From an uncultured Clostridia bacterium (GTDB taxonomy: Bacteria > Bacillota > Clostridia > Oscillospirales > Oscillospiraceae), in assembly GCA_945877515.1 (NCBI GenBank), contig CAMCSE010000012.1, forward strand, positions 1 to 45,859: DNA of 45,859 nt, read 5' to 3'. Positions 10,102-44,313 of the stretch are shown here, piece after piece. The notes under the pieces are model-generated. The model saw only the letters and a program-made list of their open reading frames with translations. It did not search any database and was not told the DNA's origin. Numbering within the stretch: the stretch's first letter is position 1; each line of letters starts with the position of its first letter. The position numbers and the translations under genes were made by a program.

Positions 10102-11430
10102 TCACCGTGTCACGAAAAAGGGGATCACACGCTCCGCTATGAGAACGTCGCCGCACTTCCAGCAGATCGTCACGCGGTAAGTGCCGGCAGGGACACGGGA
10201 GATGCCCTCCGCCGGAAGCAGCGTTAGGGTCTGCGTTGTCTGCGTTTCCGCGGCGTTGGCGGGACTGCTGCCCTCAGTCGCCGCATCTTCCCCTTCAACC
10301 GCCGTTGTCCATTCGATCTGGACCACTTTGTCTGCGCTGACATACTTAACGGTGGTCTGCGGTTGCTTCTGGGCTGTATTCTCTTGCTTCTCCGTCAGCA
10401 CAGGCTCTTCCACCCTTGCCAGCTGTTCCACGGCCGCCGTGACCTGCAGGCTTCCGCTGTTCCATGGCTGAATCTGCATGGAAGGCAGGCCATCCTCCGT
10501 ATATGTGACAGCCGCATGGCCGCTCCAGCTTTTCGCCGTCAGCGCAAGGGTATCGGTAAATACCTTTCCGTACTGGTCATTGGCGGTGAGCCGCAGCGTT
10601 CTGTCGTCATTCCCCGTAGTCGCCCTGCTCATATCCACCAACAGCGACCGGCTGCCCGCCTTCACCGGGATCGGTCTATCCTCACACAGCACCGAATAGC
10701 TGCCGCCATTGTCCGTGCTGAACCGTGTTCCTCTCGGGAAGTTCACATTGCCGCCGTCCAGCGTCATCTGCGCCGATGTGCACCCCTCCGGCAGAGTGTA
10801 CTGCACATAAAAGGGCTGCGTAACGTCATACTCCGTCATGCTGGCCTCATCGTTGAAAAGCACCGATTCTTCAGCGGATGGTCCACCCTCTTCCGCAGGA
10901 CAAAGCGTAAAGCACAGTATGCCGCCAAACCAGGTATCCGCCGCGCCCGCCAACTCCACATGGATGGGGAGCTTCACATCCACCGCACTTTTGGGCACAG
11001 TCTGCGCCGTCAGCTTCAAGGCCACAGTGATCTTGGCCACATCGTCGCTTACAGTATAGCTCGTCTGCGTCTCTGCCTGCAAATGCTTATTCACAGCGCC
11101 CAGCGTTACCGAGACAGGCTCTGCAGGCTGCGTTTCCGCCGTTTCCTCGGCCGTCGGCATCTGCAGCAGCTCTACCGGGCAGGTCATGTCAAACGTCACC
11201 GTCTTTATCTCCCCCTCCGTCGGACTCCAGTCCGCCAGCAGGAGCTGCGCTTTGTCATCGCGCAGCGCCAGGAGGTCACTGGTCAGTTCAGACGGTGACG
11301 CGGCATAGGACGCCTGCCACTGGGCGGTACGCAGGTAACGCGCCTGTGTCGGCATCAAAAGCAGCACCAGCAGCGCCGCCAATGTCAGCGCCGCTGCCGC
11401 GTATACAGTTGTCCGCAGTCCCTTTGTCAT
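10102..11430 (-). CDS. Single-pass secreted or membrane protein of the surface locus (last gene)
   Basis: About 442 residues from ATG 11428-11430, which overlaps the previous stop codon by 4 bp (ATGA coupling). The N-terminus has one hydrophobic helix (LTLAALLVLLLMPTQARY) that could be a signal or anchor of the SipW-substrate kind; the rest is predicted extracellular beta-rich sequence. There is a C-terminal Cys pair (TFD MTC near residue 100, ICWKCG near the end). I do not recognise a family. It shares its general plan (short positive N-terminus, one helix, an A-R-Y/F exit, then beta strands) with the gene just upstream. As the last gene of the operon it could be a minor subunit or anchoring component. 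No clear terminator follows; IS debris begins within 40 bp. Confidence 0.7.
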   Translation of the reverse strand: MTKGLRTTVYAAAALTLAALLVLLLMPTQARYLRTAQWQASYAASPSELTSDLLALRDDKAQLLLADWSPTEGEIKTVTFDMTCPVELLQMPTAEETAETQPAEPVSVTLGAVNKHLQAETQTSYTVSDDVAKITVALKLTAQTVPKSAVDVKLPIHVELAGAADTWFGGILCFTLCPAEEGGPSAEESVLFNDEASMTEYDVTQPFYVQYTLPEGCTSAQMTLDGGNVNFPRGTRFSTDNGGSYSVLCEDRPIPVKAGSRSLLVDMSRATTGNDDRTLRLTANDQYGKVFTDTLALTAKSWSGHAAVTYTEDGLPSMQIQPWNSGSLQVTAAVEQLARVEEPVLTEKQENTAQKQPQTTVKYVSADKVVQIEWTTAVEGEDAATEGSSPANAAETQTTQTLTLLPAEGISRVPAGTYRVTICWKCGDVLIAERVIPFFVTR

Positions 11431-12188
11431 TCGTTTCCCTTCTCGCCGCGCACGTCGGCGCATAGCCGCAGCAGCGCATCATAACGAACGTCCACATCAG
11501 CCCTGACCGCGACCATTATGGTCTTCTGCCACCGCTCACCGGCCTTGACCGTCCATGTCACTTCCGGCCCGACCTGCTCCTGTATCTCCCCTGCCTGCCC
11601 GTCTACCGTACTCTGCACAGACGTCACCGGGCAGAATCGGTAGCACCAGCCAGAGCCAAAGGAATACCACAGCGCCGATCCCTCCGGAATTGCCTCCGCA
11701 ACGCCGCGATACGTCACCAGCTTCGTTTCAGGCGCAGCATCCAGCGTGTCGTCCTGCGGCACTTCCGCTGTGTCCGCTGTGTCCACGCCCTCGACGCTCC
11801 CGTTTTCCGGTTCGGTAATGGGTGTGTCGGTCGGTTCTTCCACCGCCAGCGTGATGTCCAGTGCTTCCGGTGTCTCAATGCCCAGGCTGGCCAGCAGCGT
11901 CACGCCTACGGTCACGTCGCTTTTCTCCTGCGTACCGTCGTATTGCAGCAGGAATGTGCGTCTACAGCTGCCGTCGACCATCTGCCATGTATCACCAGTG
12001 TCCTGCGGCGCCAGCAGCTGCGGTTCCAGCCGCAGCGGTTCCAGCGGCCGGGCCTGAAGCTCTACCTCCTTTGAAACGGAGGACGAAAAACGCGCCCGCG
12101 CCGTGCCCAGGAGCAAAATGCCGCACGCCAGCAGCAGCACCGCCGCCAGACACAGCGCATATTGACTTGTCCCTGCCCGTTTTTTCAT
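11427..12188 (-). CDS. Single-pass secreted or membrane protein of the surface locus
   Basis: About 253 residues from ATG 12186-12188, with AGGGAG 12 nt ahead. A GTG at 12218 overlaps the preceding stop codon but has no ribosome site. One N-terminal helix (LCLAAVLLLACGILLLGTAR, followed by ARFSSSVS) is followed by an extracellular domain with an acidic, Thr/Glu-rich linker near residues 130-160 (EEPTDTPITEPENG). There are Cys residues in GSCRRTF and GWCYRFCP. No family recognised. Its overlap with both neighbours shows it is made together with them. By layout it resembles the next gene, and the two may be partners or ancient duplicates. Confidence 0.7.
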   Translation of the reverse strand: MKKRAGTSQYALCLAAVLLLACGILLLGTARARFSSSVSKEVELQARPLEPLRLEPQLLAPQDTGDTWQMVDGSCRRTFLLQYDGTQEKSDVTVGVTLLASLGIETPEALDITLAVEEPTDTPITEPENGSVEGVDTADTAEVPQDDTLDAAPETKLVTYRGVAEAIPEGSALWYSFGSGWCYRFCPVTSVQSTVDGQAGEIQEQVGPEVTWTVKAGERWQKTIMVAVRADVDVRYDALLRLCADVRGEKGNE

Positions 12189-12214
12189 GGATAGTTGCTT
12201 CTCCCTATGCTCTG

Positions 12215-14185
12215 TCACCCAATGGTAAATGATTGATTCTCCGAATCTGTGAAGTCGCTGTTTGCTCTCACAGCGTCCGCCTTTTCGCCCACAATCAGCA
12301 CACCCGGCAGATCTTTAGCCGCAGAAGATATGGTGCTGCCCGCAATGGTCATAGCGATCTCCTCCGCCCAGTCGTAATTGGCCTCCACATAGACGCCTGC
12401 ACCGGTGTCCAGCCAGCCGTTCCTGCTGGCCTTGACCTGCTCCGCCGTGGGGACAAAGCCGTCTTCCCGTGTACCGTTGACGATGCAGTTCCGGATCGTA
12501 ACCGTGCCGCCCTTGACGGCTATGCCGGTCATGCCCTCCACTGTGCTGTTCTGCACCAGCAGGCGGCTGCCCCGCTGGGGCTGGTAGATGCCGGCATACT
12601 TTCCCTTCACGGTGCTGTTGAGCACCTGAATATCCGTGCCGTAGCAATCGTCCGAGCCGTTGCCCAGAATACCGGCGAAGGTGCTCTCGATGGTGCAGTC
12701 CTCCACCAACAGCACCGTGCGGCTGCTGGACGCAGCGCCGTTGCCAAATACATGAACGCCCACCTGCTCGTCACCCACGGTCTTCAGCGTGCAGTTGCTG
12801 AGCCGCACCACGGAGACAGTGCCATTTTCGTTGCTTTCGTTCTTGTCGTCGATAAGCAGGCGTCCCTGAATGGTCACGCCGCTGAACGCCGCACTGCTGC
12901 CCACCAGCTGCACCGTCGTATCGCGGCTGCCGCCGTTGATCGTGCCGTTGAGCACCGTGATGCTGCTGCCCGGCGCACCCTTCAGCACCGGCTGCCCCAC
13001 CACATTGGTGGTCAGCTGCTTGCCGTTCAGGTCGATGATCACATCTTTATCCGCCGGGATGGTAACGGTGTCCTTCAATGTCATATCTCCGGCCAGTCGG
13101 ACGCTTTCACCCTGCTCCAGCGCCGCAGTCAATCTCTCCGCCTCGGTCACGTCCGCAATGCTCGTCCGCAGGTTCTGCCCGGCGATCTGAATGGTGGCCT
13201 TCGCGCCGCCCAGCAACGCGGCCACATCCTCGTATTCCTTTGTCTGCTCCTTAGTCAGCCCGATGGCGTTCCCCTGCTCGTCCTTCTGCTCCAACAGATA
13301 GCGGTATGTCCCGATGCGGGTATCCAATTCAGTGGCCGCGTCTATCTCTTCCTGTGTGCAGAGGTACAGCCACAATCCGGTTTTCTCATTATTGTCCGAT
13401 GTTCCCGTGATGTTCACGGCGTAATAGTTACCGTATTTCACTGCAGCCGCGCCCTTGTACCCATCAGCAGACAACACGCTCGTCACAAAACTGTCCGCCG
13501 TAGTAACACCGTCTGTTGTAAGGAGCTTGCCGTCCTGAAAGGTCGCACTGTCGTAGTCGTACTCCACCGGGCGGATATAGACCGGCGCTTCCACGTCCTT
13601 CCGCTTGCTCGCAGCAATCTGTTCTGCCGTGATAAGCTTATTATCCTTATCCAGCGTACCGTATACATAGTAGCCCAGCAGATCATAGACCCACTCACAG
13701 CGCACAGGGGCATCCGCCGCACTGTCCGCCGTCAGAAGCAGGGTGCTCTTGGGCATGACCCGGTAGGAATAACCGCCATAGGTGCTGAGGTAAACGCGGT
13801 CCGCCGTCTTGTCACTTTCCTTTGCCGCGGCAGGCACATAGAAGTAGATGCGCTTTTGCAGCTCCTCCGGCATGGAGGACTTGTCCACCGTCACCGTGAT
13901 CTGATTGATCTGCTCTCCGTCGTTGGTCACGGACAGCGCGGCGCAGGTGCTCTGTCCCGGTGCTAAGAGCAGCCCCGTGTCCAGCGCTTTGACCTGGCCC
14001 TCGAAGCCCCAGCTCTCCGTTTCAAAGACCAGCTCTGTGGTCTCCGCCACGTTGGTATACCAGGCCGTGGTCAGGGAATAGAGCAGCACGCCCAGCGTAG
14101 CCAGTGCCGCCAGAGCGAACAGGGCTTGCTTCCATATTTTTCCAAAGGAGGCTCTGCTGCGCTCCGCCAATTCTCTGTTACTCAT
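12215..14185 (-). CDS. SipW-substrate-like protein with parallel beta-helix
   Basis: A 656-residue protein. The N-terminal helix (ALFALAALATLGVLLYSLTT) is followed by AWYTNVAE, a variant of the TasA-type AWFT exit motif. An early domain (residues ~45-150) resembles the TasA-like fold, with TVTNDGEQINQITVTVD-type strands (here LSVTNDGEQINQITV). Residues ~380-600 are a right-handed parallel beta-helix: repeated turns such as VLNGTINGG, FSGVTIQGR, VRLSNCTLKT, LVEDCTIES and VLNSTVKGK. Such helices bind or cleave polysaccharides or serve as rods; no pectate-lyase catalytic set is evident. It overlaps the signal-peptidase gene upstream by 8 bp, suggesting it is the peptidase's direct client. Confidence 0.78.
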   Translation of the reverse strand: MSNRELAERSRASFGKIWKQALFALAALATLGVLLYSLTTAWYTNVAETTELVFETESWGFEGQVKALDTGLLLAPGQSTCAALSVTNDGEQINQITVTVDKSSMPEELQKRIYFYVPAAAKESDKTADRVYLSTYGGYSYRVMPKSTLLLTADSAADAPVRCEWVYDLLGYYVYGTLDKDNKLITAEQIAASKRKDVEAPVYIRPVEYDYDSATFQDGKLLTTDGVTTADSFVTSVLSADGYKGAAAVKYGNYYAVNITGTSDNNEKTGLWLYLCTQEEIDAATELDTRIGTYRYLLEQKDEQGNAIGLTKEQTKEYEDVAALLGGAKATIQIAGQNLRTSIADVTEAERLTAALEQGESVRLAGDMTLKDTVTIPADKDVIIDLNGKQLTTNVVGQPVLKGAPGSSITVLNGTINGGSRDTTVQLVGSSAAFSGVTIQGRLLIDDKNESNENGTVSVVRLSNCTLKTVGDEQVGVHVFGNGAASSSRTVLLVEDCTIESTFAGILGNGSDDCYGTDIQVLNSTVKGKYAGIYQPQRGSRLLVQNSTVEGMTGIAVKGGTVTIRNCIVNGTREDGFVPTAEQVKASRNGWLDTGAGVYVEANYDWAEEIAMTIAGSTISSAAKDLPGVLIVGEKADAVRANSDFTDSENQSFTIG

Positions 14186-14864
14186 GTTCGTTTTTCAGCT
14201 CCTCCAGGACCTCCGCCCGTACCTTGCGGTATATCTCTTCATATTCCTCCGGCGTCAGCTCAATGCCTTCATCCAAAGCCGCTGCCTCATCCATCTCCCT
14301 GGCCACCTCCTGCAGCTGGCGGCGGATGGAGTTGATGCTGCCCCGCAGAATCAGCGCGCCCAACAGCAGGATGGGGAACACGATACCGGCCAGAAACCCG
14401 ATCGATCCCCCGAGAAATCCTATCACCCTGGTCACACCGCCTTCCTTATCGGAATACCAAACCACCCTGCCAATGAGCTGTTGCTGCGTCACAGGCTTGC
14501 CGTCCACCACCGGGTTGGCATCACCCCGCGTTTCCAGCGTCACCGTGCCGTCCGACTGCGTGTGGATGTCGCTCACACGGTGGGTGATGATCTTCTCGCC
14601 ACTGAGATCCGCCAAGCGGAATACCACCACATCGCCCACGGCCACATCGTGAATGTCCGTGCTGCGGCACACGATCACAGCGTTTACCGGGATGGTGGGT
14701 TCCATACTGCCGGTGATCACCCGGAACAGGCTGTAGCCCATCACACTGGCATAGCCTCGTGCCGCCACCTGAAGCGCAACGGTGATACACAGCAGCACCG
14801 CCGCGCACAACACCGCCACGCTGGCAACGTCACCGACGCGGCGCTTCGTTGCTTTCGTTTCCAT
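14178..14864 (-). CDS. Signal peptidase I, SipW (ER) type, copy 2
   Basis: A 228-residue membrane peptidase. One N-terminal helix (VAVLCAAVLLCITVALQVAA), catalytic Ser53 in TGSMEPTIP and His95 in KIITHRVSD. His rather than Lys as general base marks the SipW/ER/archaeal class, which cleaves the special signal peptides of TasA-like proteins. A second helix near the C-terminus (GFLAGIVFPILLLGALIL) leads to a cytoplasmic, strongly charged helical tail of about 45 residues (ELTPEEYEEIYRKVRAEV). It starts 6 bp after the upstream TasA-like gene and overlaps the next, so it sits between its presumed substrates. Complete and likely active. Confidence 0.92.
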   Translation of the reverse strand: METKATKRRVGDVASVAVLCAAVLLCITVALQVAARGYASVMGYSLFRVITGSMEPTIPVNAVIVCRSTDIHDVAVGDVVVFRLADLSGEKIITHRVSDIHTQSDGTVTLETRGDANPVVDGKPVTQQQLIGRVVWYSDKEGGVTRVIGFLGGSIGFLAGIVFPILLLGALILRGSINSIRRQLQEVAREMDEAAALDEGIELTPEEYEEIYRKVRAEVLEELKNEHE

Positions 14865-14870: not shown

Positions 14871-16169
14871 TTATTTTACTGTGCTGCCCGCCAGCTCGAT
14901 ACGCATGGCAAAGCCGCTTACGGACGCGCCGCTGACGCAGTCCGCGTCCTGTCCCTCCAGCCATATAAACATCCGGATGCGCTGAGGCACATTGCGCTCC
15001 AGCGTCACGATGCTGTTGCTCTCGTTAGCCCCTGCTTTATCCATCCGCTCTAGCGTGGCTTGCAAAACAGTGTGGTCTTCTCCCATACTTGTATAGAGCC
15101 GGTCGGTGTTCTGAATAAATTGTCCTTTGTTCACATAGTCAGAGCGGCCAGCCAGGGTCTTATAGAGCTGAGCCTGTACGTCTGCCGCAGTCGCCGTATC
15201 CCCCGCCTGCTTCACACTGGCTGTAAGCAAGTCGTTGACCTTATTTTCCTCCCACTGACTGGCCATCTGCACACTGAGCTTGCCGCCCACCGGTATACCG
15301 GTAACGGAAGTGCCGTTCCGACCCAGCGGATAGGTGGCGATATAACCCGTTTCTCTCTGCACGGTATGGCTGCTGCCATTCGGCTCGTAGATGTGGAACG
15401 TATTGTAGGAGAAGGCAGGCTGCACCTGCTCTTCCGCCTTCTGATAGTCGCCCATCAGTTTGGTATAGCGCTGGTCGCCGCCGTCGGCAGCGTAAGCGGC
15501 CACACTGTCCGCAGCGGCGTTTTGGTTCACCAAAAAGCCTACGCGAAGGCTCTCGGACGCCGGGTACTCCGGCGTCTGCATGGCGAAGCCAGCTTTCGTT
15601 TCCACCACCTGGGGCAGATCCACCACATAGCTGCCCGCGCCGCTGGCATCGTCGCTGGTGGACACCCGCAGCTCGTAACGGCTGCCGGGGGACACCACCC
15701 AGAAGTCAACGTACAAATAACTCCCCTTGGCGGCTTTTTCATCGCCAGCCGACAGGTTGGCGTACGTCAACGTCTCGTCACACAAGAATTGATTATACGG
15801 CTTCAGATCTCCCGCTTTGGCCGTCCTCGCCAGCACCTCCGGGTCATTCTCCGTATAGTACACCGGCAGATACCAGCTCAGTCCGTCCGCCGTGGAGACC
15901 GGCGTCAGGCCGCTGTACGCATCGGTGTCCAGTAGATCGTCCAGCCGCAGCGTAGCGCCAAACGCGCCGGGGTAATGCTTCCCCTCGTCGTTCACCACAT
16001 CAGGTGCCAGCAGAATGGTGCTGCCGCCGCCCACGGCCACCTGGATGCCCTCAGCCACCGGACTGGTGGACGCGGTGAGCCAGGCGTAGGAGCTCATGAC
16101 GATCATGGCCATGGCACACAGAAGGGCGGCCGCCGTGCAAGCGATCTTTATGTATGCTTTTTTCTTCAC
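14871..16169 (-). CDS. TasA/camelysin-like secreted subunit (WLEGQD group)
   Basis: 432 residues from a GTG start (16167-16169) with a GGAGGGG site. The signal segment AMAMIVMSSYAWLTASTSP matches SipW-cognate signal peptides (hydrophobic core, then SxYAWxT). The mature part is beta-rich, with FHIYEPNGSS near residue 260 and MFIWLEGQDADC near the C-terminus. The latter two motifs recur in the 28361-29419 protein and, in altered form, at 33195-34361, defining a second subunit group within the locus. TasA-like proteins form extracellular fibres in Bacillus. Placement just before the SipW gene supports processing by it. Confidence 0.8.
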   Translation of the reverse strand: MKKKAYIKIACTAAALLCAMAMIVMSSYAWLTASTSPVAEGIQVAVGGGSTILLAPDVVNDEGKHYPGAFGATLRLDDLLDTDAYSGLTPVSTADGLSWYLPVYYTENDPEVLARTAKAGDLKPYNQFLCDETLTYANLSAGDEKAAKGSYLYVDFWVVSPGSRYELRVSTSDDASGAGSYVVDLPQVVETKAGFAMQTPEYPASESLRVGFLVNQNAAADSVAAYAADGGDQRYTKLMGDYQKAEEQVQPAFSYNTFHIYEPNGSSHTVQRETGYIATYPLGRNGTSVTGIPVGGKLSVQMASQWEENKVNDLLTASVKQAGDTATAADVQAQLYKTLAGRSDYVNKGQFIQNTDRLYTSMGEDHTVLQATLERMDKAGANESNSIVTLERNVPQRIRMFIWLEGQDADCVSGASVSGFAMRIELAGSTVK

Positions 16170-16204: not shown

Positions 16205-17965
16205 TTATTTCTTCTTTCTTTTCTGCGCTTCGTCCAGCATCTCCTGCATGATCTGCATACGCAGAGCGTCCTCATCGATCGCATCATCGTCTGCCGCCAT
16301 CGCCGCATACTTAGCCTTGGTCTTAGACATCTTGTTCAGTGTCACCATGACTACAGAAATGACCAGGATCACCGATCCGATAATGATAGCCGCGGTTATG
16401 GCAAATTGCTTCCCCGTAACGCCCCAGCGGGAGCCGCGTCCGGTGATCTGATAAGCCGTCCCATTGGCATCTGTAAGCGTCGCATCCACACCGTAAGCCG
16501 CAGACAATGACTCCGGTATTACCGCGTTTTCCATGCCGACACCCTCCGCATTGATGCCCACATAGTATTTTGTCCGTTTACTTATGCTGGCCAGCGAGAA
16601 CCATGCGTAGCCCTCATCATCAACCACCGAGGTCTGCACGGCGTCCGTGCCCTGATAAAGCGTTGCATACTGGCGGGCATTGTCCACCTTTACGCCGACG
16701 GTCACATCAAAATCCGTATTGTCCGCGAAATCCACCCGAAACACCTGGTCACTCTCAATGCCGGCCTTCTCGGAGTCTGTTTCCGTCACAGACGCTCCCA
16801 GCTTATAAGATCCTGAGTAATCCTTGTCCGTGGCGTTGGCCGCGTCGATCTTCCAGCGAGAGCCGTCCTCCGCACGGATGGTAATGGTCGCATCTTCACC
16901 GCCAAAACGAGAGAGGTCTTTGCCCGAGATCTCCCCACTTTCCGGCTGAATGATGACCTCCAACACACCGTCCGCACCATCATCGCGCGCTTTATCCACG
17001 GTGTCCTTCAAATCTGACCACCCCTGCTTGTCCGTGATCGTGGCAGTAATGGTCGTTGTCTCTTTCCCGCCGTCGTTTTCTTTCTTGACGGAGATGGTAC
17101 TGCTCTTATTTTCAGAAACGGTGGTCTGCGCGCCGCGGCTTCCGCCGGTGGTCGTACTGCCGGCAGGCGGCGTTGTTGTCACACTGTCCGCGGAAAAGGA
17201 TGTATCGCCCTGCCGTATGCTCTCCAGCAGCGCATCCGCCACCGTCTGATCGCCGGAATCCGTATACACCGTATCAATGCTTTCACAGCCCTTGAACGCA
17301 TACTCTCCCGACGCGGAAATGGTAGACGAAAGCAAGACCTCCGTCAGCGCGGAGCAGCCGTAGAACGTCCACGTGGGCACTCCGGCCAACCGCGCCGACA
17401 GCGTCGCCCGCACCAGTCCCGTGCAATAGGCGAACACGGACACGCCCATGCTGCTTACCGATGCCGGCACTGTGATCGCCGCAAGAGATGCGCACCGGTA
17501 AAACGCCATGCTGCCGATGGTCGTAAGGGAATACGGCAGCGTCACGGCGGTCAGCTTCTCGCAGGCGCGGAACGCACACTCTCCGATCTCGGTCACGCCG
17601 CTGCCCAGGCGGACCGTCAGCAGCTCCGCACACTCGGCAAAGGCATAGTCGCCAACGCGGGTCACACTGTCCGGCAGCGTCACGGCAGTCAGCTCTTCGC
17701 ATCCATAAAATGCCAGATCGCCCACAGAGGTCAGCCCACCGGGCAATGACACAGCGGTGATCTGCTGCCGCAGATCATACCACGGTGACATCTCGCTCTC
17801 CGGAAAATCCGTCATCTCGCCGCTGCCGGTAATGGTCAGCGTCCCGCCGCTGAAGCTCCACTTCAGGTCATCGCCGCAGACGCCGCCCTCCTCCGCATAC
17901 GCGGGGAGGGTCAGCGTGAGCGTCAGCAGAAGGATTAGTAACGTTGCTATCCCGCTTCTTTTCAT
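16205..17965 (-). CDS. BspA-type leucine-rich-repeat membrane protein
   Basis: 586 residues from ATG 17963-17965 (GAGGAAG site), overlapping the previous gene by 4 bp; an upstream in-frame start at 18145 lies deep in that gene and is rejected. A signal peptide (LLILLLTLTLTLPAYA) is followed by seven 23-residue LRR_5 repeats (pattern LPxxVTxIGxxAFxxCxxL), residues ~85-240. A Ser/Thr/Gly linker, a ~250-residue beta-rich domain and a C-terminal helix (ITAAIIIGSVILVISVVMV) come next, ending in a 45-residue acidic/basic cytoplasmic tail finishing QKRKKK. BspA repeats bind host matrix proteins or other cells. The protein would sit in the membrane with the LRRs outside and the tail free to contact cytoplasmic partners. 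Confidence 0.85.
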   Translation of the reverse strand: MKRSGIATLLILLLTLTLTLPAYAEEGGVCGDDLKWSFSGGTLTITGSGEMTDFPESEMSPWYDLRQQITAVSLPGGLTSVGDLAFYGCEELTAVTLPDSVTRVGDYAFAECAELLTVRLGSGVTEIGECAFRACEKLTAVTLPYSLTTIGSMAFYRCASLAAITVPASVSSMGVSVFAYCTGLVRATLSARLAGVPTWTFYGCSALTEVLLSSTISASGEYAFKGCESIDTVYTDSGDQTVADALLESIRQGDTSFSADSVTTTPPAGSTTTGGSRGAQTTVSENKSSTISVKKENDGGKETTTITATITDKQGWSDLKDTVDKARDDGADGVLEVIIQPESGEISGKDLSRFGGEDATITIRAEDGSRWKIDAANATDKDYSGSYKLGASVTETDSEKAGIESDQVFRVDFADNTDFDVTVGVKVDNARQYATLYQGTDAVQTSVVDDEGYAWFSLASISKRTKYYVGINAEGVGMENAVIPESLSAAYGVDATLTDANGTAYQITGRGSRWGVTGKQFAITAAIIIGSVILVISVVMVTLNKMSKTKAKYAAMAADDDAIDEDALRMQIMQEMLDEAQKRKKK

Positions 17966-18729: not shown

Positions 18730-18750
18730 GCCCATTGCTCCTTTTTTGTT

Positions 18751-28280: not shown

Positions 28281-28360
28281 GGATCTTCTCCCTTCGATTG
28301 CTGCTTTTACGTTCATATTATCTGATAAACAGTCCAACCTGCACGCAGGCTGCCCGAAAA

Positions 28361-33058: not shown

Positions 33059-33078
33059 TCTCACGTACTCCTTTCGAG

Positions 33079-33112: not shown

Positions 33113-33122
33113 TATGGATCAT

Positions 33123-35850: not shown

Positions 35851-35881
35851 TTCGTTACTCCTTCTCGCAAACACCCCTCTA

Positions 35882-35908
35882 CCCCAGCGCCCTAAAAGGG
35901 CGCTGGGG
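35882..35908 (-). promoter_or_regulatory. Intercistronic hairpin
   Basis: CCCCAGCGCCC (35882-35892), loop TAAAA, GGGCGCTGGGG (35898-35908): a perfect 11-bp stem between two operon genes, with no U-run on the transcript. Partial termination or message protection are both possible. Confidence 0.6.
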
Positions 35909-35939
35909 TGTCCATGCTTCAATTTTGCAGGCAGTCGCC

Positions 35940-36944
35940 TTACTCATCATCGGAGATGTCGTAATCCACCAGCGGGGTAGAATCCTTGCAGTTCCGCTTG
36001 CGGCGGTTCACGTTCTTGACGATCACAAAGGTCAGCACCAGGTTCACAGCGAAGCTGACGAAGAACAGGATCGGCCATACTCTGTGCGCCTTGATGTTGC
36101 AGAACTCACCGTTAGCGCTATTCTCCAGAATCTGCTGGATGATGCCGTTGATCTCGTCGGCCAGAGCGTTCACCGCGGCCTGGTCGCCGCTGCGGCGAAC
36201 CTCATCGGCGCGCTTGAGAGCGTCGGCCAGGGTCAGCCACAGGCTGTTGACCTTGTTGTCGCCGCCCATGGCATTGGCATCATTCAGTGCCTTATCCAGT
36301 GCGGAATAGTCGATCTTAGCCATGGAATTCAACACGTCTGTCAGCAGCTTCAGCGCCGCGTCGATGTCAGACTGCTTCTTGCTGCTCAGCGCTTCCTCTG
36401 CCTTGGCCAGAGCATCCTGCAGCGCATCCCACTGCTCCTTACTGTAATCATTGGGATTAAGGCTTTCGGCCTCCTTGATCTTCTTCTCCAGCTCCGTGGT
36501 GTCCACAACGCCGGTACCACCGCCGATGCCGTCAGGCGAGGAGTCCTTGTCACCCACCGTCACGGTCTTTACCACCGTCTGCGTACCGCTGTCGTTGCCG
36601 TTGGCGTCATAGGCGTTGTAGGTGAAGGTCACGGTGTACACATCGCCGAGCTTGGCGCTGGCCGGCGCACCCACGGTAGCGGTGACGGTCTTGGTGCCGC
36701 TGTTGTACAGGTAGAACTTGCCGCCGGAGGTGATGCCGCCGGACTCGCTGCTGCTGTAGCTGGCGGTGGCCCCGCCGCTGACGGCCACCGTGCCGTCGAT
36801 GCCGCCGTCGCCGCCTTGGGACAGGGACACGCGGATGCTGCTGCCGGGCTTCACCGTATACTCAGCGGCGAAGGCCATTGTGGTCAGTGCCAGGCAAGCG
36901 ATCAGCACAAGAAGCACTGCCAGACCCTTTTTGAATCCTTTCAT
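35940..36944 (-). CDS. FIVAR-like surface protein with C-terminal membrane anchor
   Basis: 334 residues from ATG 36942-36944. A signal peptide (LAVLLVLIACLALTTMAFA, cleavage before AEYTV) precedes a ~120-residue beta domain (Ig-like), then a helical segment (DYSKEQWDALQDALAKAEEA, then IDAALKLLTDVL) typical of the FIVAR module seen in cell-wall proteins. A C-terminal helix (PILFFVSFAVNLVLTFVIVK) and a short basic-then-acidic cytoplasmic tail (NRRKRNCK ... DYDISDDE) end it. It is a type I membrane protein with its outer part presumably near the dockerin protein made from the preceding gene. Hairpins flank the gene on both sides. Function unknown. Confidence 0.78.
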   Translation of the reverse strand: MKGFKKGLAVLLVLIACLALTTMAFAAEYTVKPGSSIRVSLSQGGDGGIDGTVAVSGGATASYSSSESGGITSGGKFYLYNSGTKTVTATVGAPASAKLGDVYTVTFTYNAYDANGNDSGTQTVVKTVTVGDKDSSPDGIGGGTGVVDTTELEKKIKEAESLNPNDYSKEQWDALQDALAKAEEALSSKKQSDIDAALKLLTDVLNSMAKIDYSALDKALNDANAMGGDNKVNSLWLTLADALKRADEVRRSGDQAAVNALADEINGIIQQILENSANGEFCNIKAHRVWPILFFVSFAVNLVLTFVIVKNVNRRKRNCKDSTPLVDYDISDDE

Positions 36945-36983
36945 ATTTTCCGTACCTCTCATTTCATTGTGATGCGGTGTGCC

Positions 36984-37052: not shown

Positions 37053-40000
37053 TCAAACCGTGATCTTCAGTGCGGAGCGGTAGCCGCTCCAGTTCTGATA
37101 CTTCACTCTGTTCTTCACGGCGTCGCCGGCGTCCACCTTGCCGTTGCGGTTCATGTCCGCGGCCTCCAGGGCAACGCCGCTGAGGGTCGCTGTGCCGAAG
37201 TAGTGGTTGCGCATCTTCACAGCGTCACCGGAGTCGGTCTTGCCGTTGCAGTTGGTATCGCCCATGATGATAACAGTGTAGCTGCCTGCTCTGCTGCCGC
37301 TCACGTAGATGCTGGCACCGTTGGCCACCAGGCCAGAGGCCGTCAGACCGCTGTAGATAGTCACCTCGGCGCTGCTGTCATTGAAATACTTGCGTACCGC
37401 GGTCTGCAGCTGTTTGGCGTTGATGCCGGTAGGCTGGACATCCAGATAGATGTAGCTGCCGGTGTAGGAGCCACCGCCGCCACCGCCGCCGGAGCTGCCG
37501 GAGCGCTTCAGGGAGTAGGTGGTCATGGCGGTGCCCACGCTGCTTACAAGGCTGTAGCTGCTGCCCAGGGCGCTGTCCACAGCGCAGTCCCCGGCAGTTA
37601 CGGTGCCGTTCTCCACCACCAGCACGGAGCCGGACTTATCGAACACGAACTGGTGGCCGCCCATACGGACTTTATCCACGCCCATGAGGGTGTGCTTCTT
37701 GCTGCCCAGCTTGATGTCGGCGGTGAGGGACAGGTTGTGCAGCACGGTGACGGTGGTGTTCTTATCCGCCGCCGCCATGGCCGCGGCCAGGTCGTCGCCG
37801 TACACCGTCTTGCCGTTCTGCGTGTACTGGATGGCATACGCCGCCAGCGTGTAGATGTACGTGCCGGCTGTGGTGTTATCCGTCACCAGATGGAACGCGC
37901 CGTTCGCGGACTTCACGGTCAGTGCCGCATCGGAGGTCAGCTTGCTGCCGATGCCATCCAGCAGGAACGCATACCCGCCCTGGTTCAGCTTGCTGCCGTT
38001 CTTCACGGCCACGTCCTCTGTGATCGTCTCGTCTGCCGCCATGGTCACCGCGTCGTTGAAGATCAGCGTACCACCAGCTTCGTTGACCTTGGTCACCGCC
38101 TCTGTCAGCTGGTCAGCGGCAAAGCTGGTATGCTTGCCGTCCTTGTCGATGACCACGATAGCGCCTTCCTTGGCAAACAGCTCCAGCGTCAGCTTGGCGT
38201 TCTCCATGCTGACCACGCCGTTTACCTTCCAGTCTCCAGAAACCGTGGCCGTCTTGTTGAAGGTCTTGTCGGGCGCATACTCATAGATGCCGAATTCCTT
38301 CTCGAAGCCGGCCAGCGTTGCGCCGTTGCCGTTGATATTCAGCTGCTTCAGCAGCCAGCCCGCAGCCGCCATGCCGCCGCGGTAGGCCGTCAGGCTGTCG
38401 TAGCTTTCGCTGATAGCCTTATAGGTCTTGCTGTCCGTCCCGAAGCCCACGCTGATCGCCATCTGCAGGAAGTTCGTGCGCAGGCCCACAGTCTTCAGTG
38501 CCGCAAACACCTGCGCGCAGGTGACCTTCTCCATAGCGGTCTTCAGTGCCGCCGCATCGTTGTTGTTATAGAACGTCTCGACCGCGTTCTTCAACTCCGC
38601 CCGCAGGCTGTCACCGGCAGGCAGGCTGTTGGCTACGGTGATCGCCATCAGTGCCGCATAAACGGGCTTGTCGCTGATCTTAACGGTCACATGACCGCTG
38701 CCGCTGAGCTTTGCCTGCACGGTCTTGCCGCCCAGCTCCTGCGGGAGCGTGATTCGATCCAGGCTCAGGCTGGGCTTGTCGGCCGCATCGACCTCGATGA
38801 TCCCCGCCAGCTGCTCCAGCGCATTCTTCAGCTGCTCGTTGTTCTTCTCGCTGTCGCTGTTCAGGAACACATTCAGCGTCTGCCGCTTGGTCTTGCTGCT
38901 GTCTGTGCTGCCGGTAACACCGATGGCCAAATAATCGCCACTCTCGGCCTTATCCACCGTCACATCCCATGCCGTGGCGGTCAGCCTGTAACTGACCGCG
39001 GCGTTGTTGCTGCCGATGCTGTCCGCCAAATTCTGGAAATCCAGCAGCGCATCCAGTATGCTGCCGATCAGGTAGTTGACGCCGTCGTAATTGTCCTCAG
39101 CACCCTCGCCGTTGTAGCCCAGCATGTCATCCAGCAGATCATTGCCCACGGCATTGCTCACATGGAACTTTCCGTTCTGGAACAGAGTGGTGATGTCCTC
39201 AACAGCCGCGTTATACAGCGTATGGCCGTCCACGGTCACCTTCTGCGCCGTGCTGTAATAGTTCAGCAGCAGATCGGATGCCAGGTCGCCCGCCAGCGCC
39301 GCCACGGTGTACTTATCCGCATCCCGCAGAGACTGGGCCGTAGCCTTCAGCGTCACATTGATATTGCTGCCATTCACCTCGATGGTGTAGTACTGGTTGC
39401 TGACCAGGCCATTCTCCTCCATGGTGTAGCCATTACGGATCTCGCAGCCGGTGAGCTTGCTCTTTTTGTAAGAGCCGCCTGCCAGCACCATGTTCTGCAC
39501 CTTGCCGGTGACAGTGCCGCCGCCGTTGGTGTCCAAAATGCTGTCCACCACGAAGTTGTTTGCCTTATACTGCTCCGTGCCGATAATATCGCCGCTGAAC
39601 GTGTGGCCGCGGAGATCCACGTACACATACTTGCCGTTGATACGCAGCGTACCGCTGCAATCCTTCAGCAGCACCACGAGAGAGGTGTCTTTCTCGATGG
39701 TGGTATCCAGATCGGTCAGGAAGCTGACCCCGCCGGAGCCCACCACTATGGCCGCGTAATCCCCGGCAGGTGTCCGGCCGTCAAGTGTAACCGCCAGCTT
39801 ACCGCTCAGGGCATTCTCCGCAATGGCATTCTCCAGTGCTGTCTTGAGATTGTCACCCATCAGAGAAGTGATGCCATTTTCTCCCTTCACCGGGTAAGAG
39901 ACATCTGCATTGAACGTGGTAGCGTCACCACTCTTGCCAGACACGGTCGCCGCCTTCAGTACCGTACGGATAGTTCCGATGTACTTATCGTACAGCTCAG

Positions 40001-43000
40001 TATACCGGCTCACATCTGTGGTAATACCCAGTTTTGTCAGTGTGTTCTGAATGGTCGTGCCAGTAATGGCCTCATTCTCTAAGACCGGCTTGATCTTATC
40101 CGCAGCCAAAGTCTCCACACTGGCAAGGTTGAAGTTGGAAATATCATCAATACTACTCTCACCCAGTGCCAGCAGTCCCGTCAGGAACGCCTTGTACGCC
40201 TTGTCCGGCGCAGTGATGTCCACGTTGACTGTGCCATTATCCAGCCATGCGTTCACGCTATCCCGCGCCTTGGCCAGATTATCTCTCATCTTCTTGAGTG
40301 TGTCGGCACTCTTGTCGAAGTCTTCCAGCGTTACGCACAGGCTCAACTCCTTGCCGTCCAATACCAGGCCATCGCTGTCGGTGTTCAGCAGAACGCCACC
40401 CATAGTATCATCGGAAAGCGGCACGTAATAACCGCCCACCTGAATATAGCTCTTGTCGGAAACGGTAGTCACTCCCACCACGTCCGCCGTGCGGAGTCCG
40501 GAGTTTTCCTTGATGCCTCCGTTTTCATCCACGATCCCCAGCACAGTATCCATGCCAAATCCGCTATCCAGCAACGTATTCACCAACGCCTGGAGATAAA
40601 CCAGTTCATCGTCCCACAGCACACCACCGGACAGTTTTACCTCGCTGTACGTCATCAGCTCATTAGCCACGTCCGCCAGCATATTTTTCAGATTTGTCGC
40701 CGTAAATGTCGTGGTGTCGGGAGAAATACGCACCAGAATGGTCATCGCGCCATTTTTCTCCACGGGGATAAATGCCAGACTGAGGCAGGTCTTCCCATCT
40801 TCCGTATAAATTAGGCCACGCTTTGCAACTGCGGCGTTCAGCGCGTCTACCGTTTTCAAAACGGCTTCACGCCGAATATCGACCTTGCTGCGGGCGATGG
40901 TGATCGTCTCACCACGGAGCAGCCTTTGAACCTGCTCCGCACTAAAGCGATACTTGTTATTCTTGTCCGGAGAAACGGTTGTTCCATCTACGGTGTAGTC
41001 ATACCGGAAGCCATCCTCGCTGCACGGCGGCAGTTCGACCTCCGGGTCGTCCACGTAGAACTCTGCCGCAACACCCTCTATCGTCACCGAAACCTTCCTC
41101 GGCTCATAAACCACCGTGATGCTGCCACCGGCATATTCATCCCCTGCCTGAGGCAGAACGCCTGTATTCTCCTGCCGCTGATACATCGTCAGGTCCATGC
41201 CGCTGCCCGCTGTATTCAGCGCCGCATTCAGGGCGTTTTCCAGCGCTGTGATATCGCTTTGCGTCAGTTTGTGGGTATCCTGGCCCTCGTCCTTTTCAAA
41301 GCTCACACTCTGGCGATCGCTGCCAACTGTCTCACCGGCGCTGTTTTTGATCTCCACCGTGATGTTAGCCGCAATCTTACCAGGTGCTTCCACACTCAGA
41401 ATGGCAGAAAGCACAGGCTCTTTGGCAACAGTTGCGTACTGCGTTGTCTTGCCGATAGCCGCCACGACTTTCTCTGTCAGGCTCCGTAGACTCGGACTTG
41501 CTATGTTAACGCGGTCATCCACACCATCGAGCTTCCCGTTCACTTCACGGAGCTTAGTTTTGATTTTCTGCAGGTCGTTAAAGATTCCCTCGTCAGCCTC
41601 CTTGACCAACGCCTGAACACCTGCGTCCTCCAAAACTACATCTACCAGCTTACTGCACAGATCGTCCATCTCTCTGCGGATCACCGCCGCGTTTTTATAG
41701 TAGTAAGTCAGCTTTGCTGCATCGTCTGTCAGCGCGGCATACTCTCCGATGTACGGGAAAATAATCAACTGTTTGTTGATTACATTATTGGCATACACGT
41801 CTTTCCAAACCGCGACCGCCTCTGCGGATATATTGTGCTCCGTGTCGTTTACGATCTGCGTGTTGATCATGGAGAGCTTGTCATTTACCTTCGCCAGCTG
41901 TCCATATTGCCCGGCCAAATCACCCATAGCCTCCAGCTGCTGCTTCGCAGCAACTGTCAGCGTATACGGAAGGTTCAGAATTTCCGTCGTCTCTTCCGCT
42001 GTGTAGCCGAGGCTCTCCCAATCCAGCGTCAGCTCATACTGCACCAGCACTCTGTCAAAAGAGCCGGCGACCACTGCCGTGTATTTACCGGTCGCTTCCT
42101 CCAGCACAAACCGCACAGGAGTCCCTTCAGCACCGCCTGCTACGGGCGTAGCCGCCTTGGGCAGCCACATCAAGCCACTGCCTCCGCCAACGCCATATGT
42201 AGCCGCAGTCACAACACTGTTCTCCACATGCAGCAGCCCGCTCTCAGCGGAGGGTGTCCGCAGACGCTTTACGCCGGTATTCAGCGCGGTGTTGGTCAGA
42301 ATATCACCTGCGTAAGTATCGTCTTTGGCATAGTTTTCATAGAGCAGCTTGCCAAGGTTATGCTCCTCCCACGCCTTTCCTTCCACACGGCTGATGACTG
42401 TATTGCCGACCACGCGATACACGCTGCCCTCGTCATAGCTCACGCCATTTACCGTGTAGTCGTAGACATAGTCGCTTCCGCCGTGCAGTGGCAGCGTCAC
42501 ATTGTAGCCATAGGGCACCGGCAGTCTATTGCCATCGCCCACGTCGATATCAATAGCATCCTGCACCGTATACACGATAGTGTAGCTTGCGTCCGCACTC
42601 AACACGCTGCCCACGGTCTGCTCCACCTCGCGCTTGTAGTAAGCGCCCTCAGCCACAGCGTAGTCCTTCCAATCCTCGGCAGCCAGCGCCGCGCTCTCGA
42701 AGCCCTTATCCGCGATGGCCTTTTCTATCTGTGCTAATGTGGTATCCTTTTTCAGCGTCAGCTCGCTCGCAGTGCTGCGAATCTCCACCGGAGTCTTGTT
42801 GTCATACTGGTCCAGCGGAATGACTTTTGCCATGACCTGCACCGTCACCTTGTACTGGTTCACGTCCGCAGTAACCACGCTGGTCATTTTGCAGACGTTT
42901 TCTTCCACAGTGATATCAGAATCATGCAGCTTACTCTGACCATTCATCGCAGCAGATGCCAGATCATTTAAAGCTAGATACTGTTCTTTATTCAATGAAG

Positions 43001-44033
43001 CATTGACTACAGTCTGGTTCAACACCAGCCACGCATCCTCGATAACCGGCCGAATGCTTTCGCCGACTCTCCCCAGATACTCCAGTCCGGCTTTGACCGT
43101 CTTGGCATTTTCCTTTTGCTCGGCTGTAGCAGACCCCAAACCTATGATCGTCGTTGCCGCCCAATGCAGCGATCCAAACTCAGTGTCAGACAGCGCAACG
43201 ATATCCCGGTAATACTGCTCCGCCACGGCTTTCATCGTGACGCCTTCTTTTACCAGATACGCAGTCTTTCCCTCTTCATAGGCTGCATACTTGTTCAGTT
43301 CCACGCTGATGTCCAGATTTCCACTATTTCTGTCTATCTGCGCTTTCATGTCATCGATAGCATCTGCCGCATCGCCAACGACATCGATATGAGCGGTTCC
43401 AAAATCAATACCGTCGGTTCTCAGCTTATACAGCGCATCAAAATACTGTTCCAACAGATCTGAAGCGCCAGACTGACTATTCAGCGTCTCGATATTCTCC
43501 AGGCCCTTAGACAGCATATAGGGCGTGTTCAGCAGAAGATTCTGCGTACCTGTCGGCACAGAAATCGCTGCAGCATAATCTACCTCTACGCTATACGTAT
43601 TGCCTGCTTCACTGAACGATCCCACGTAATCCTGACCGTTCTTTTTCAACTTGACATGCTCATTGGTTATACTGCCTACAACAATACGTGCGCCCTCAGG
43701 CAGCCATGTGAATCCGTCTTTTGTGAAGCTCTTTGCTGTAATAGTAAGAGCTGTCTCATCTACGGTCACAATTTCATCCTGGCTGGCAGGTGCCGTATAT
43801 GTATACGTCTTCCCTGTCAGCAACCCCGACTCCAGCAGAGCTTTTTCGGCATCCGTCAGCTTGTCGGCATAAGCCTTGGCCACCAGTTCACCTGCTGTGA
43901 CCGTTTCCTTTCCGCCCGCGTTGACAGGCCGCTCCACCACCGCTGCCAGGCATTCTGTTACCGTGCTCAGCGCCATGACCAGCGCAAGCACCAATGCCAG
44001 CAGACGTTTTCCTGTGCGCTCATGTTTTTGCAT
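37053..44033 (-). CDS. Giant secreted protein with C-terminal dockerin
   Basis: About 2,326 residues from ATG 44031-44033. A signal peptide (LLALVLALVMALSTVTECLA) is followed by long beta-rich and helical modules. At least one module is repeated: FTWLPEGARIVVG, SVEVDYAA and LLLNTPYMLSKG early on, then LMWLPKAATPVAG, YELTLDWES and LNLPYTLTVAAK. A second repeated piece is YDYTVNGVSYDEG versus YDYTVDGTTVSPD. A Gly-rich linker (SGSSGGGGGGGSYTG) precedes a ~60-residue domain and two dockerin type I calcium loops, GDTNCNGKTDSGDA and ADMNRNGKVDAGDA. Dockerins plug into cohesins, but none is seen in this window. First gene of the operon; probably an adhesin or scaffold protein. Confidence 0.85.
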   Translation of the reverse strand: MQKHERTGKRLLALVLALVMALSTVTECLAAVVERPVNAGGKETVTAGELVAKAYADKLTDAEKALLESGLLTGKTYTYTAPASQDEIVTVDETALTITAKSFTKDGFTWLPEGARIVVGSITNEHVKLKKNGQDYVGSFSEAGNTYSVEVDYAAAISVPTGTQNLLLNTPYMLSKGLENIETLNSQSGASDLLEQYFDALYKLRTDGIDFGTAHIDVVGDAADAIDDMKAQIDRNSGNLDISVELNKYAAYEEGKTAYLVKEGVTMKAVAEQYYRDIVALSDTEFGSLHWAATTIIGLGSATAEQKENAKTVKAGLEYLGRVGESIRPVIEDAWLVLNQTVVNASLNKEQYLALNDLASAAMNGQSKLHDSDITVEENVCKMTSVVTADVNQYKVTVQVMAKVIPLDQYDNKTPVEIRSTASELTLKKDTTLAQIEKAIADKGFESAALAAEDWKDYAVAEGAYYKREVEQTVGSVLSADASYTIVYTVQDAIDIDVGDGNRLPVPYGYNVTLPLHGGSDYVYDYTVNGVSYDEGSVYRVVGNTVISRVEGKAWEEHNLGKLLYENYAKDDTYAGDILTNTALNTGVKRLRTPSAESGLLHVENSVVTAATYGVGGGSGLMWLPKAATPVAGGAEGTPVRFVLEEATGKYTAVVAGSFDRVLVQYELTLDWESLGYTAEETTEILNLPYTLTVAAKQQLEAMGDLAGQYGQLAKVNDKLSMINTQIVNDTEHNISAEAVAVWKDVYANNVINKQLIIFPYIGEYAALTDDAAKLTYYYKNAAVIRREMDDLCSKLVDVVLEDAGVQALVKEADEGIFNDLQKIKTKLREVNGKLDGVDDRVNIASPSLRSLTEKVVAAIGKTTQYATVAKEPVLSAILSVEAPGKIAANITVEIKNSAGETVGSDRQSVSFEKDEGQDTHKLTQSDITALENALNAALNTAGSGMDLTMYQRQENTGVLPQAGDEYAGGSITVVYEPRKVSVTIEGVAAEFYVDDPEVELPPCSEDGFRYDYTVDGTTVSPDKNNKYRFSAEQVQRLLRGETITIARSKVDIRREAVLKTVDALNAAVAKRGLIYTEDGKTCLSLAFIPVEKNGAMTILVRISPDTTTFTATNLKNMLADVANELMTYSEVKLSGGVLWDDELVYLQALVNTLLDSGFGMDTVLGIVDENGGIKENSGLRTADVVGVTTVSDKSYIQVGGYYVPLSDDTMGGVLLNTDSDGLVLDGKELSLCVTLEDFDKSADTLKKMRDNLAKARDSVNAWLDNGTVNVDITAPDKAYKAFLTGLLALGESSIDDISNFNLASVETLAADKIKPVLENEAITGTTIQNTLTKLGITTDVSRYTELYDKYIGTIRTVLKAATVSGKSGDATTFNADVSYPVKGENGITSLMGDNLKTALENAIAENALSGKLAVTLDGRTPAGDYAAIVVGSGGVSFLTDLDTTIEKDTSLVVLLKDCSGTLRINGKYVYVDLRGHTFSGDIIGTEQYKANNFVVDSILDTNGGGTVTGKVQNMVLAGGSYKKSKLTGCEIRNGYTMEENGLVSNQYYTIEVNGSNINVTLKATAQSLRDADKYTVAALAGDLASDLLLNYYSTAQKVTVDGHTLYNAAVEDITTLFQNGKFHVSNAVGNDLLDDMLGYNGEGAEDNYDGVNYLIGSILDALLDFQNLADSIGSNNAAVSYRLTATAWDVTVDKAESGDYLAIGVTGSTDSSKTKRQTLNVFLNSDSEKNNEQLKNALEQLAGIIEVDAADKPSLSLDRITLPQELGGKTVQAKLSGSGHVTVKISDKPVYAALMAITVANSLPAGDSLRAELKNAVETFYNNNDAAALKTAMEKVTCAQVFAALKTVGLRTNFLQMAISVGFGTDSKTYKAISESYDSLTAYRGGMAAAGWLLKQLNINGNGATLAGFEKEFGIYEYAPDKTFNKTATVSGDWKVNGVVSMENAKLTLELFAKEGAIVVIDKDGKHTSFAADQLTEAVTKVNEAGGTLIFNDAVTMAADETITEDVAVKNGSKLNQGGYAFLLDGIGSKLTSDAALTVKSANGAFHLVTDNTTAGTYIYTLAAYAIQYTQNGKTVYGDDLAAAMAAADKNTTVTVLHNLSLTADIKLGSKKHTLMGVDKVRMGGHQFVFDKSGSVLVVENGTVTAGDCAVDSALGSSYSLVSSVGTAMTTYSLKRSGSSGGGGGGGSYTGSYIYLDVQPTGINAKQLQTAVRKYFNDSSAEVTIYSGLTASGLVANGASIYVSGSRAGSYTVIIMGDTNCNGKTDSGDAVKMRNHYFGTATLSGVALEAADMNRNGKVDAGDAVKNRVKYQNWSGYRSALKITV

Positions 44034-44109
44034 CGAACTCCACACTCCTATCTTTGCTGATACTTACTATTCCAAAGCCTCCACGTTGACAGACGCGAAT
44101 ACGCTTTTG

Positions 44110-44143
44110 AAAACAAAAAACCGCCGCGGACATAGTCCACCCC
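44110..44143 (-). terminator. Possible leader attenuator of the surface operon
   Basis: In the ~245-nt leader the transcript forms GTGGAC-UAU-GUCCGC, extendable to CCGGGGTGGAC with GTCCGCGGCGG across a two-base internal mismatch, followed at once by UUUUUUGUUUU. It has the shape of an intrinsic terminator between promoter and first gene and would have to be overcome for expression. Confidence 0.5.
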
Positions 44144-44207
44144 GGGAGTTTCCTGCCGCACTGCCACTCACCCCCGCAAAGCCGCAGCGCACTATCGTCT
44201 ATATATC

Positions 44208-44263
44208 GGCAATTCGCACGTTTTTCTGTCTGCACACCTTCCCCAGTTTTCCCCAGAATTGCC
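44208..44263 (-). promoter_or_regulatory. Structured 5' leader stem of the surface operon
   Basis: GGCAATTC (44208-44215) and GAATTGCC (44256-44263) pair perfectly and enclose 40 nt containing two CCCCAG units. Together with the terminator-like hairpin downstream this resembles a regulatory leader. It does not match c-di-GMP-I, T-box or cobalamin consensus as I know them. Confidence 0.4.
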
Positions 44264-44284
44264 AAGTATCACCTTTTACCGCAT

Positions 44285-44313
44285 ATTATACATGAAGCGC
44301 AGTCACATTTCAA
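44285..44313 (-). promoter_or_regulatory. Main promoter of the 18-gene surface operon
   Basis: TTGAAA (44308-44313), a 17-bp spacer and TATAAT (44285-44290) on the minus strand. It shares TTGAAATG and TTCATnTATAATATGCG with the promoter at 45183-45211. A weak plus-strand candidate (TTGCCA at 44259, TATTAT at 44284) overlaps it and may serve the regulator gene at 44352. Confidence 0.8.

Follow-up and report, generated by a model that had tools for sequence, protein, structure and literature searches.

A SipW-linked surface operon in an uncultured Clostridia bacterium, built around a CoCoPALM-type, McrBC-derived membrane NTPase that may gate fibre assembly

What would a membrane-anchored nucleoside triphosphatase (NTPase) related to McrB be doing among genes for exported surface proteins and the signal peptidases that process them? 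The question is raised by a 45,859-nucleotide stretch of DNA, here called the window, from an uncultured Clostridia bacterium of the Oscillospiraceae (GenBank assembly GCA_945877515.1, contig CAMCSE010000012.1, positions 1 to 45,859); it forms contig 12 of a draft genome of 1.65 Mb (80.6% complete), and its closest named relative, judged by the NTPase gene g09, is a Ruminococcaceae draft genome at 81% identity. Eighteen genes, g01 to g18, follow one another on the minus strand, and we lean towards reading them as a SipW-processed surface-fibre operon around an McrBC-derived membrane NTPase of the CoCoPALM type, in which hydrolysis of nucleoside triphosphate (NTP) would gate the base of the fibre. 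That the NTPase belongs to an export or fibre system is very probable. The further proposal, in which it would power or gate assembly on a base formed by g04 through tail and coiled-coil contacts, ranges from tentative to slightly favoured, depending on how much is claimed. The genes on which this argument turns are as follows:

33195..34361, minus strand: g04, membrane protein with a single helix, a long segment at the N-terminus and an ectodomain of beta structure; the NTPase's signature partner (model; co-occurrence)
31907..33064, minus strand: g05, secreted subunit with SSTYAWF-type N-terminus (profile comparison)
29546..31849, minus strand: g06, secreted subunit, paralogue of g05 (profile comparison)
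28361..29419, minus strand: g07, secreted subunit of the core type with a WLEGxDxxC motif (profile comparison)
27306..28364, minus strand: g08, SipW-type signal peptidase (TIGR02228) whose C-terminal tail is long and charged, start probably at 28280
25637..27235, minus strand: g09, McrB-like (NxD) membrane-anchored NTPase (profile, motifs, tree)
23778..25625, minus strand: g10, McrC-like DUF2357 domain (PF09823) plus a coiled coil read from the sequence, no nuclease by Pfam
18804..23663, minus strand: g11, giant secreted subunit whose N-terminal part (to about residue 920) is a g05/g06 paralogue (profile comparison)
14871..16169, minus strand: g14, secreted subunit, paralogue of g07 (profile comparison)
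14178..14864, minus strand: g15, second SipW-type signal peptidase, with tail (TIGR02228)

The linkage of NTPase and SipW genes extends well beyond this genome. A scan with g09 returned 450 relatives, and among the best 80 of these 450 loci a SipW gene lies within 10 kb of the NTPase in 77 (within 3.6 kb in 76), the three loci lacking one being those where the contig leaves just 39-745 bp upstream. A McrC-like gene adjoins the NTPase in 79 of the 80, the single miss being cut by a contig end, and TasA-like genes, called with loose iterated profiles that include subunits of the g07 kind, lie nearby in 71. At the 48 loci with 8 kb on either side, SipW and McrC-like genes are present in every case and TasA-like genes in 44. 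All 138 SipW matches at the 80 loci are on the NTPase strand and none on the opposite one, the nearest lying at a median of 212.5 bp (n=80 loci).

Two genome sets give the same picture. In a family set of 150 genomes, a strong NTPase match is found in nine (three more have weak matches), all 9/9 with an over-cut-off SipW within about 1.3 kb; such a SipW occurs anywhere in 26/150. In a class set of 391 genomes, the g09 profile matches 42, and the SipW-linked form occurs in 15 from ten families, with SipW (custom profile) near the NTPase in 15/15, a class that is our own assignment and would give 15/16 if G250 were counted as linked. The stretches fetched at seven intermediate-score loci (five with tandem NTPases, G361 and G250, the last cut by a contig end and left out of the tree) and at six more distant McrB-like loci contain no SipW. 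In the tree the sampled SipW-linked NTPases form one clade (46/46, support 0.98), which groups with the sister sequences (57/57, support 0.735). The ATPase and fibre genes that the initial annotation had placed in one system are thus not usually apart, as 9/9 family genomes, 15/15 class genomes and 77/80 loci attest; the proximity of ATPase and SipW genes is not due to chance.

What had been called an ATPase pair is instead one McrB-like NTPase, g09, and one McrC-like protein with a DUF2357 domain and a coiled coil, g10. When the g09 family profile is compared with solved structures, McrB is the sole convincing relative, at expectation (E) values of 2.6e-5 to 6e-5. The Walker A motif GISGTGKTS, the Walker B motif LDEMN and the motif NNDDST are invariant in 41/41 aligned g09 sequences. 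By itself NNDD is compatible with an NxxD motif too; the typing rests on the sister sequences (NTDD) and on the outgroups (NMDE, NIDE, NIDQ and NMDD, located in 8 of 10), in which the D at position 3 is constant and the second and fourth residues vary, and g09 is therefore of the NxD type. A hydropathy helix lies within the first 160 residues of the NTPase in 80/80 loci, and a coiled coil was read from its sequence. In g10, residues 1-364 match DUF2357 (PF09823, the McrC N-domain) at 25.8 bits against a curated cut-off of 23.3; the full-length protein gave no match in Pfam, and 56 of 73 aligned family members match DUF2357 at E<=1. No PD-(D/E)xK or other nuclease domain was found in g10 by Pfam, no fold search of the C-terminal part having been made, and the g10 profile has no credible match among solved-structure sequences. 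Overall, the pair shares with McrBC type IV restriction the AAA+ core of McrB and the DUF2357 domain of McrC, but differs from it in the membrane helix of the NTPase, the lack of a nuclease by Pfam in g10 and the surface-gene context.

A third component, g04, is as specific to the linked genomes as the NTPase pair itself. Strong g04 matches (E<1e-20) occur in 14/15 class-set genomes with the SipW-linked NTPase and in 0/376 others, and in 8/9 NTPase genomes and 0/141 others of the family set (Fisher 8e-25 and 2e-12, P values uncorrected for phylogeny). The linked genomes G396 and G072 have weak g04 matches only, and G312, G453 and G462, which lack a linked NTPase, match weakly where the membrane helix lies (E 8e-4 to 9e-6). 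The gene lies on a separate contig from the NTPase in four drafts (G129, G148, G057 and G500), and at 37 kb and 16 kb from it in G314 and G036. The structure model of g04 (predicted local distance difference test, pLDDT, 83) shows a single long helix that coincides with the membrane segment, and an ectodomain of beta structure. Its top match in the PDB, a weak one, is the archaeal bundling pilus of P. calidifontis (7ueg; prob 0.82, E 3.5e-3). To our knowledge no NTPase is known for archaeal bundling pili. Profile comparison relates g04 to g07 with 92% probability over a 45-residue C-terminal segment that contains WxEGxD, and the g04 profile has no credible match among solved-structure sequences.

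The initial annotation knew of no described system with this set of genes, and here it was overtaken by the literature. The association of such an NTPase with McrC and signal peptidases had already been named CoCoPALM, in one paragraph of section 7 of Bell et al. 2024 (PMC11090510; preprint PMC10542128). Common to that description and our locus are an NxD McrB-like NTPase with a membrane helix, predicted here, at its N-terminus and a coiled coil, putative here (FtsB-like there), a McrC homologue (DUF2357) usually with a coiled coil, and signal-peptidase genes alongside, which the paragraph calls likely pilus assembly factors and which are of SipW type here. Judged from its sequence, the NTPase pair fits the CoCoPALM type. 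The word TasA does not occur in the main text of that paper and no partner of the g04 type is named in its section 7, nor does that section describe the cargo families, a pattern of tail lengths or a sister group. A search of the open-access literature on SipW or TasA with Clostridia, Ruminococcus, McrB, camelysin and AAA+ returned no title on such a system.

The peptidases and their likely substrates can also be compared with Bacillus. Both peptidases were rightly called SipW-type: g08 and g15 score 92.9 and 82.4 bits with the NCBIfam model TIGR02228 (cut-off 51.85), and 111.8 and 74.6 with the Bacillus SipW equivalog model, short of its cut-off of 190. The subunits g05, g06 and g11 on the one hand and g07 and g14 on the other fall into two tight groups, which profile comparison connects at 97-98% probability; the alignment of g07 with the first group spans 116-289 columns, that of g14 the signal region alone (47-54 columns). 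The earlier description of these proteins as TasA/camelysin-like went too far, as no curated TasA or camelysin model matches the proteins of the window. The SipW-dependent-signal model TIGR04088 is matched in 2/29 subunit homologues from elsewhere (best E 0.0055), and in G129, on the contig that carries the NTPase, one place reaches its cut-off together with the neighbours; the camelysin family PF12389 is above cut-off in 1/14 carrier genomes (G540), anywhere in the genome. The g07 profile has no credible match among solved-structure sequences, and no TapA match was found among the window proteins. We favour the view that the subunits would work like TasA, of whose family they are candidate members. 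In the tapA-sipW-tasA operon of B. subtilis, as presented in PMC9674648, a SipW-type peptidase likewise stands beside secreted subunits and a base or nucleating protein. That operon has three genes and no NTPase, whereas the present one has an NTPase and many more subunits, which fail the TasA/camelysin models, and a g04 with a membrane helix and long N-terminal segment. According to PMC9674648, TasA fibres assemble by donor-strand exchange, a process explained there without an NTPase; its main text never uses the term ATP.

The gene linkage, the domain identities, the co-occurrence of g04 with the NTPase and the longer SipW tails described below are direct observations; with these in hand, we infer a topology, a complex, a fibre and a use of energy with a direction. 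The secreted subunits (g05-g07, g11 and g14) would enter the membrane through their N-terminal helices, from which the two tailed SipW peptidases, g08 and g15, would then release them. The g04 protein would remain in the membrane, exposing a TasA-superfamily-like ectodomain on the outside while its N-terminus faces the cytoplasm. In Bacillus, TapA is the base or nucleator of the fibre, and g04 would likely take that role. On the cytoplasmic face, g09, with its N-terminal helix as anchor, may form an AAA+ ring that is activated by the McrC-like g10, whose coiled coil would bundle with the SipW tails and the cytoplasmic segment of g04. NTP hydrolysis could thereby gate the processing or the addition of subunits at the fibre base.

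The contacts proposed here bear on the lengths of three segments. SipW proteins encoded within 600 bp before the NTPase have a median of 66 residues after the last membrane helix (n=59; 64 without the two tails longer than 200 residues, one of them a fused frame), against 21 in unlinked ones (19 values, 17 loci; all P values of the tail statistics are uncorrected for phylogeny). A g10 extension of at least 60 residues is present in 53/67 loci counted; in the 14 others the nearest SipW tail has a median of 15 as against 63, and the N-terminal segment of g04 is 12-39 residues long (7 measured) as against a median of 57. The pattern is compatible with an interaction of g10, the SipW tail and g04, but it is confounded by clade, since 7/14 short-extension loci are labelled Tenericutes, Bacilli(ales) or Erysipelotrichaceae.

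That clade effect is one of several results that weigh against the proposed mechanism. The 60-residue cut was picked after the values had been viewed, with L016 and L091 dropped. Over all loci, the g10 extension is not significantly correlated with the nearest SipW tail (rho 0.21, p 0.09), the longest tail (rho 0.07, p 0.58) or the g04 segment (rho 0.25, p 0.08). In the family set, 16/47 over-cut-off SipW places, counted by eye, lie near an NTPase, which means that SipW export does not need one. Neither PF12389 nor TIGR04088 is matched anywhere in the window genome. The g04 frame contains stops in 2/14 strong-match genomes (G500 and G314); its match to 7ueg has a template modelling (TM) score of 0.35 when normalised to the target and 0.19 when normalised to the query, with a root-mean-square deviation of 13 Å, none of the fold matches attains E 0.001, and the ranks after 7ueg are taken by unrelated beta-sandwich proteins. 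For the g10 model (pLDDT 85), the McrBC chain 6hz4_M, presumably McrC to judge from its chain length, comes sixth in the fold search (E 0.26, prob 0.30), a weak match.

Given its descent, could the pair serve defence instead, detecting phage at the envelope, perhaps by way of the fibre, and either acting as a defence module that moves together with the fibre genes or triggering one? Apart from the McrB/McrC ancestry of g09 and g10, this account could draw on the PADLOC candidate defence model PDC-M26A, which matches g09 at E 2.1e-41 and all 41/41 aligned homologues at E<=0.01, and on the patchy distribution of the NTPase (9/150 and 15/391 genomes). We consider it decidedly unlikely: Pfam finds no nuclease or effector domain in g10 or the other window genes, the seven of the other 17 window proteins that were compared with PADLOC have no match there, and the NTPase is tied to SipW in ten families of the class set and at 77/80 loci. 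The open-access literature searched for PDC-M26 yielded nothing, and a defence annotation by this model may mislabel such surface-fibre loci. Another reading, that functionally separate neighbours are co-inherited in a mobile surface island, would accommodate both the patchy presence and the varying accessory genes. It is very improbable in view of the 77/80 linked loci, the single strand, the median of 212.5 bp to SipW and the strong g04 in 14/15 linked genomes from ten families.

Closer to the proposed gating lies a role in regulation or quality control, in which the NTPase would extract misfolded or uncleaved subunits or shut off SipW without driving fibre growth. AAA+ rings commonly pull on substrates, which suits such a role, as do the long tails of the NTPase-linked SipW proteins. 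So does the explanation of donor-strand assembly of TasA without an NTPase (PMC9674648). The sequence results do not separate this role from assembly, but the co-occurrence of g04 favours a role at the base, and we regard pure quality control as somewhat unlikely. On the assembly side, the most far-reaching form is that this is the first NTP-driven machine for TasA-like fibres, an McrBC-derived motor driving or gating strand-exchange growth through g04 and the SipW tails; this we put forward tentatively, as a possibility less probable than its negation.

Were assembly at the base indeed powered in this manner, fibre growth on the cell's exterior, where energy is otherwise unavailable, would draw on NTP hydrolysis in the cytoplasm; some SipW-linked fibres would be under energetic control, and a restriction-system NTPase would have been reused for surface building. 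As it stands, a conserved NTPase, its putative activator and a candidate membrane base are linked to SipW across many Clostridia and also in some Bacilli, with a cultured strain of Ruminococcus bromii among the carriers, and CoCoPALM gains a concrete cargo and a candidate third component.

The locus was first described as one 18-gene unit, yet its genes recur unequally. Recurrence was judged by single-sequence search at E<1e-10 in 15 near and 65 far loci, with flanks of 10 kb bounding every absence. Among the far loci, g10 is found in 64, g08 in 60, a g15-type SipW in 55 (the g08 and g15 queries may match the same genes) and g04 in 41, g09 being in all 65 by design. The genes that recur widely are g04, g08, g09 and g10, together with another SipW and, by the looser profile (71/80 loci), g07-type subunits, while g05, g06, g11 and g03 are in 13-15/15 near and 0/65 far loci; g12, g17 and g18 are in at most 1/15 near loci, or with g13 in at most 2/15, and g17 has weak matches in five near loci. 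A compact set in R. bromii 5AMG runs subunit, g04, subunit, tailed SipW, NTPase and McrC-coiled coil, followed by four exported proteins with AWF/SWF-like signals (by eye), the last cut by the locus end; in Anaerosporobacter faecicola the order is g04, subunit, SipW, NTPase, McrC-like, SipW. The remaining features of the window are:

44285..44313, minus strand: promoter-like TTGAAA-17-TATAAT (hexamer scan)
37053..44045, minus strand: g01, exported giant that carries a dockerin (Pfam), ATG start probably at 44033
35940..36962, minus strand: g02, FIVAR-like, with two hydrophobic helices and a short C-terminal tail (Pfam, 24.4 bits, below the cut-off of 29.2)
34393..35922, minus strand: g03, HD plus EAL protein, apparently a degenerate cyclic di-GMP enzyme (Pfam; letters by eye)
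17962..18735, minus strand: g12, Lgt-superfamily membrane protein (Pfam LGT)
16205..18145, minus strand: g13, surface protein with LRR_5 (Pfam), ending in a membrane helix and a tail, start probably at 17965
12215..14185, minus strand: g16, beta-helix exported protein (Pfam)
11427..12218, minus strand: g17, exported protein with weak relatives only (relative searches)
10102..11463, minus strand: g18, exported protein, likely start 11430

The predicted dockerin giant (28.1 bits, cut-off 22.9), leucine-rich repeat, beta-helix and Lgt-like proteins are all recovered by Pfam in g01, g13, g16 and g12. For g03, Pfam confirms the HD and EAL domains of a cyclic di-GMP protein, and its degeneracy rests on reading by eye: HQ stands at the expected HD and EAV at the expected EAL, which we take to be the catalytic motifs. 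The protein thus fuses HD-GYP-like and EAL-like domains without a membrane helix, both motifs being altered by eye, and is found in 13/15 near and 0/65 far loci. The window suggested a C-terminal docking motif common to several membrane proteins (SipW, LRR and FIVAR), but relatives do not bear this out: among near ones 22/26 tailed SipWs and 0/38 other tailed proteins carry such motifs, and among far ones 4/90 SipWs and 5/301 others do.

The operon itself is real, with 18 co-directional genes behind a near-consensus promoter. The open reading frame (ORF) list bears out eighteen long minus-strand ORFs from 44045 to 10102, and the claimed promoter is found at 44313-44285 (minus strand) with 11/12 consensus matches; a site with equal hexamers and score lies about 0.9 kb further upstream (45211-45183, minus strand), and a scan of 27000-45859 gave 22 sites with at least nine matches against a shuffle mean of 12.2. 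Gaps between ORFs are -184 to +130 with mechanical starts. With later starts after ribosome-binding-site-like sequence (g08 28280, g13 17965, g18 11430), overlaps of 4-8 bp do exist, at 4/17 junctions (g12/g13, g15/g16, g16/g17 and g17/g18), for which "many" was generous. Between promoter and g01 lies a leader of about 240 nt (44044-44282, minus strand) with a terminator-like hairpin at 44140-44126. A riboswitch in it was rejected: Rfam gave no match at E<=1, the fold has a z of -1.54, 14/200 shuffles fold equally well, and six relatives yielded a tRNA alone. Upstream of the promoter, a divergent gene at 44352-44720 (plus strand) encodes an XRE-type protein, its helix-turn-helix recognised by eye, with an in-frame TAG at codon 25; it may be a broken regulator or a draft-genome error.

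Finally, five loci (L125-L128 and L131, in the class genomes G504, G508, G344, G526 and G490) carry a sister system, with no SipW in the stretch, in which two membrane-anchored McrB-like NTPases flank a McrC-like gene. All 11/11 sister NTPases examined also have membrane helices, and the idea that such a helix is exclusive to the SipW-linked form was wrong. A giant protein of membrane or surface type follows, with a transglutaminase domain in L127 and related giants at the other four loci, and a related small membrane protein is present in 3/5. If the assembly reading of the SipW-linked form is true, these tandem NTPases beside giant surface-type proteins would mean that McrBC machinery has been recruited repeatedly for surface building.

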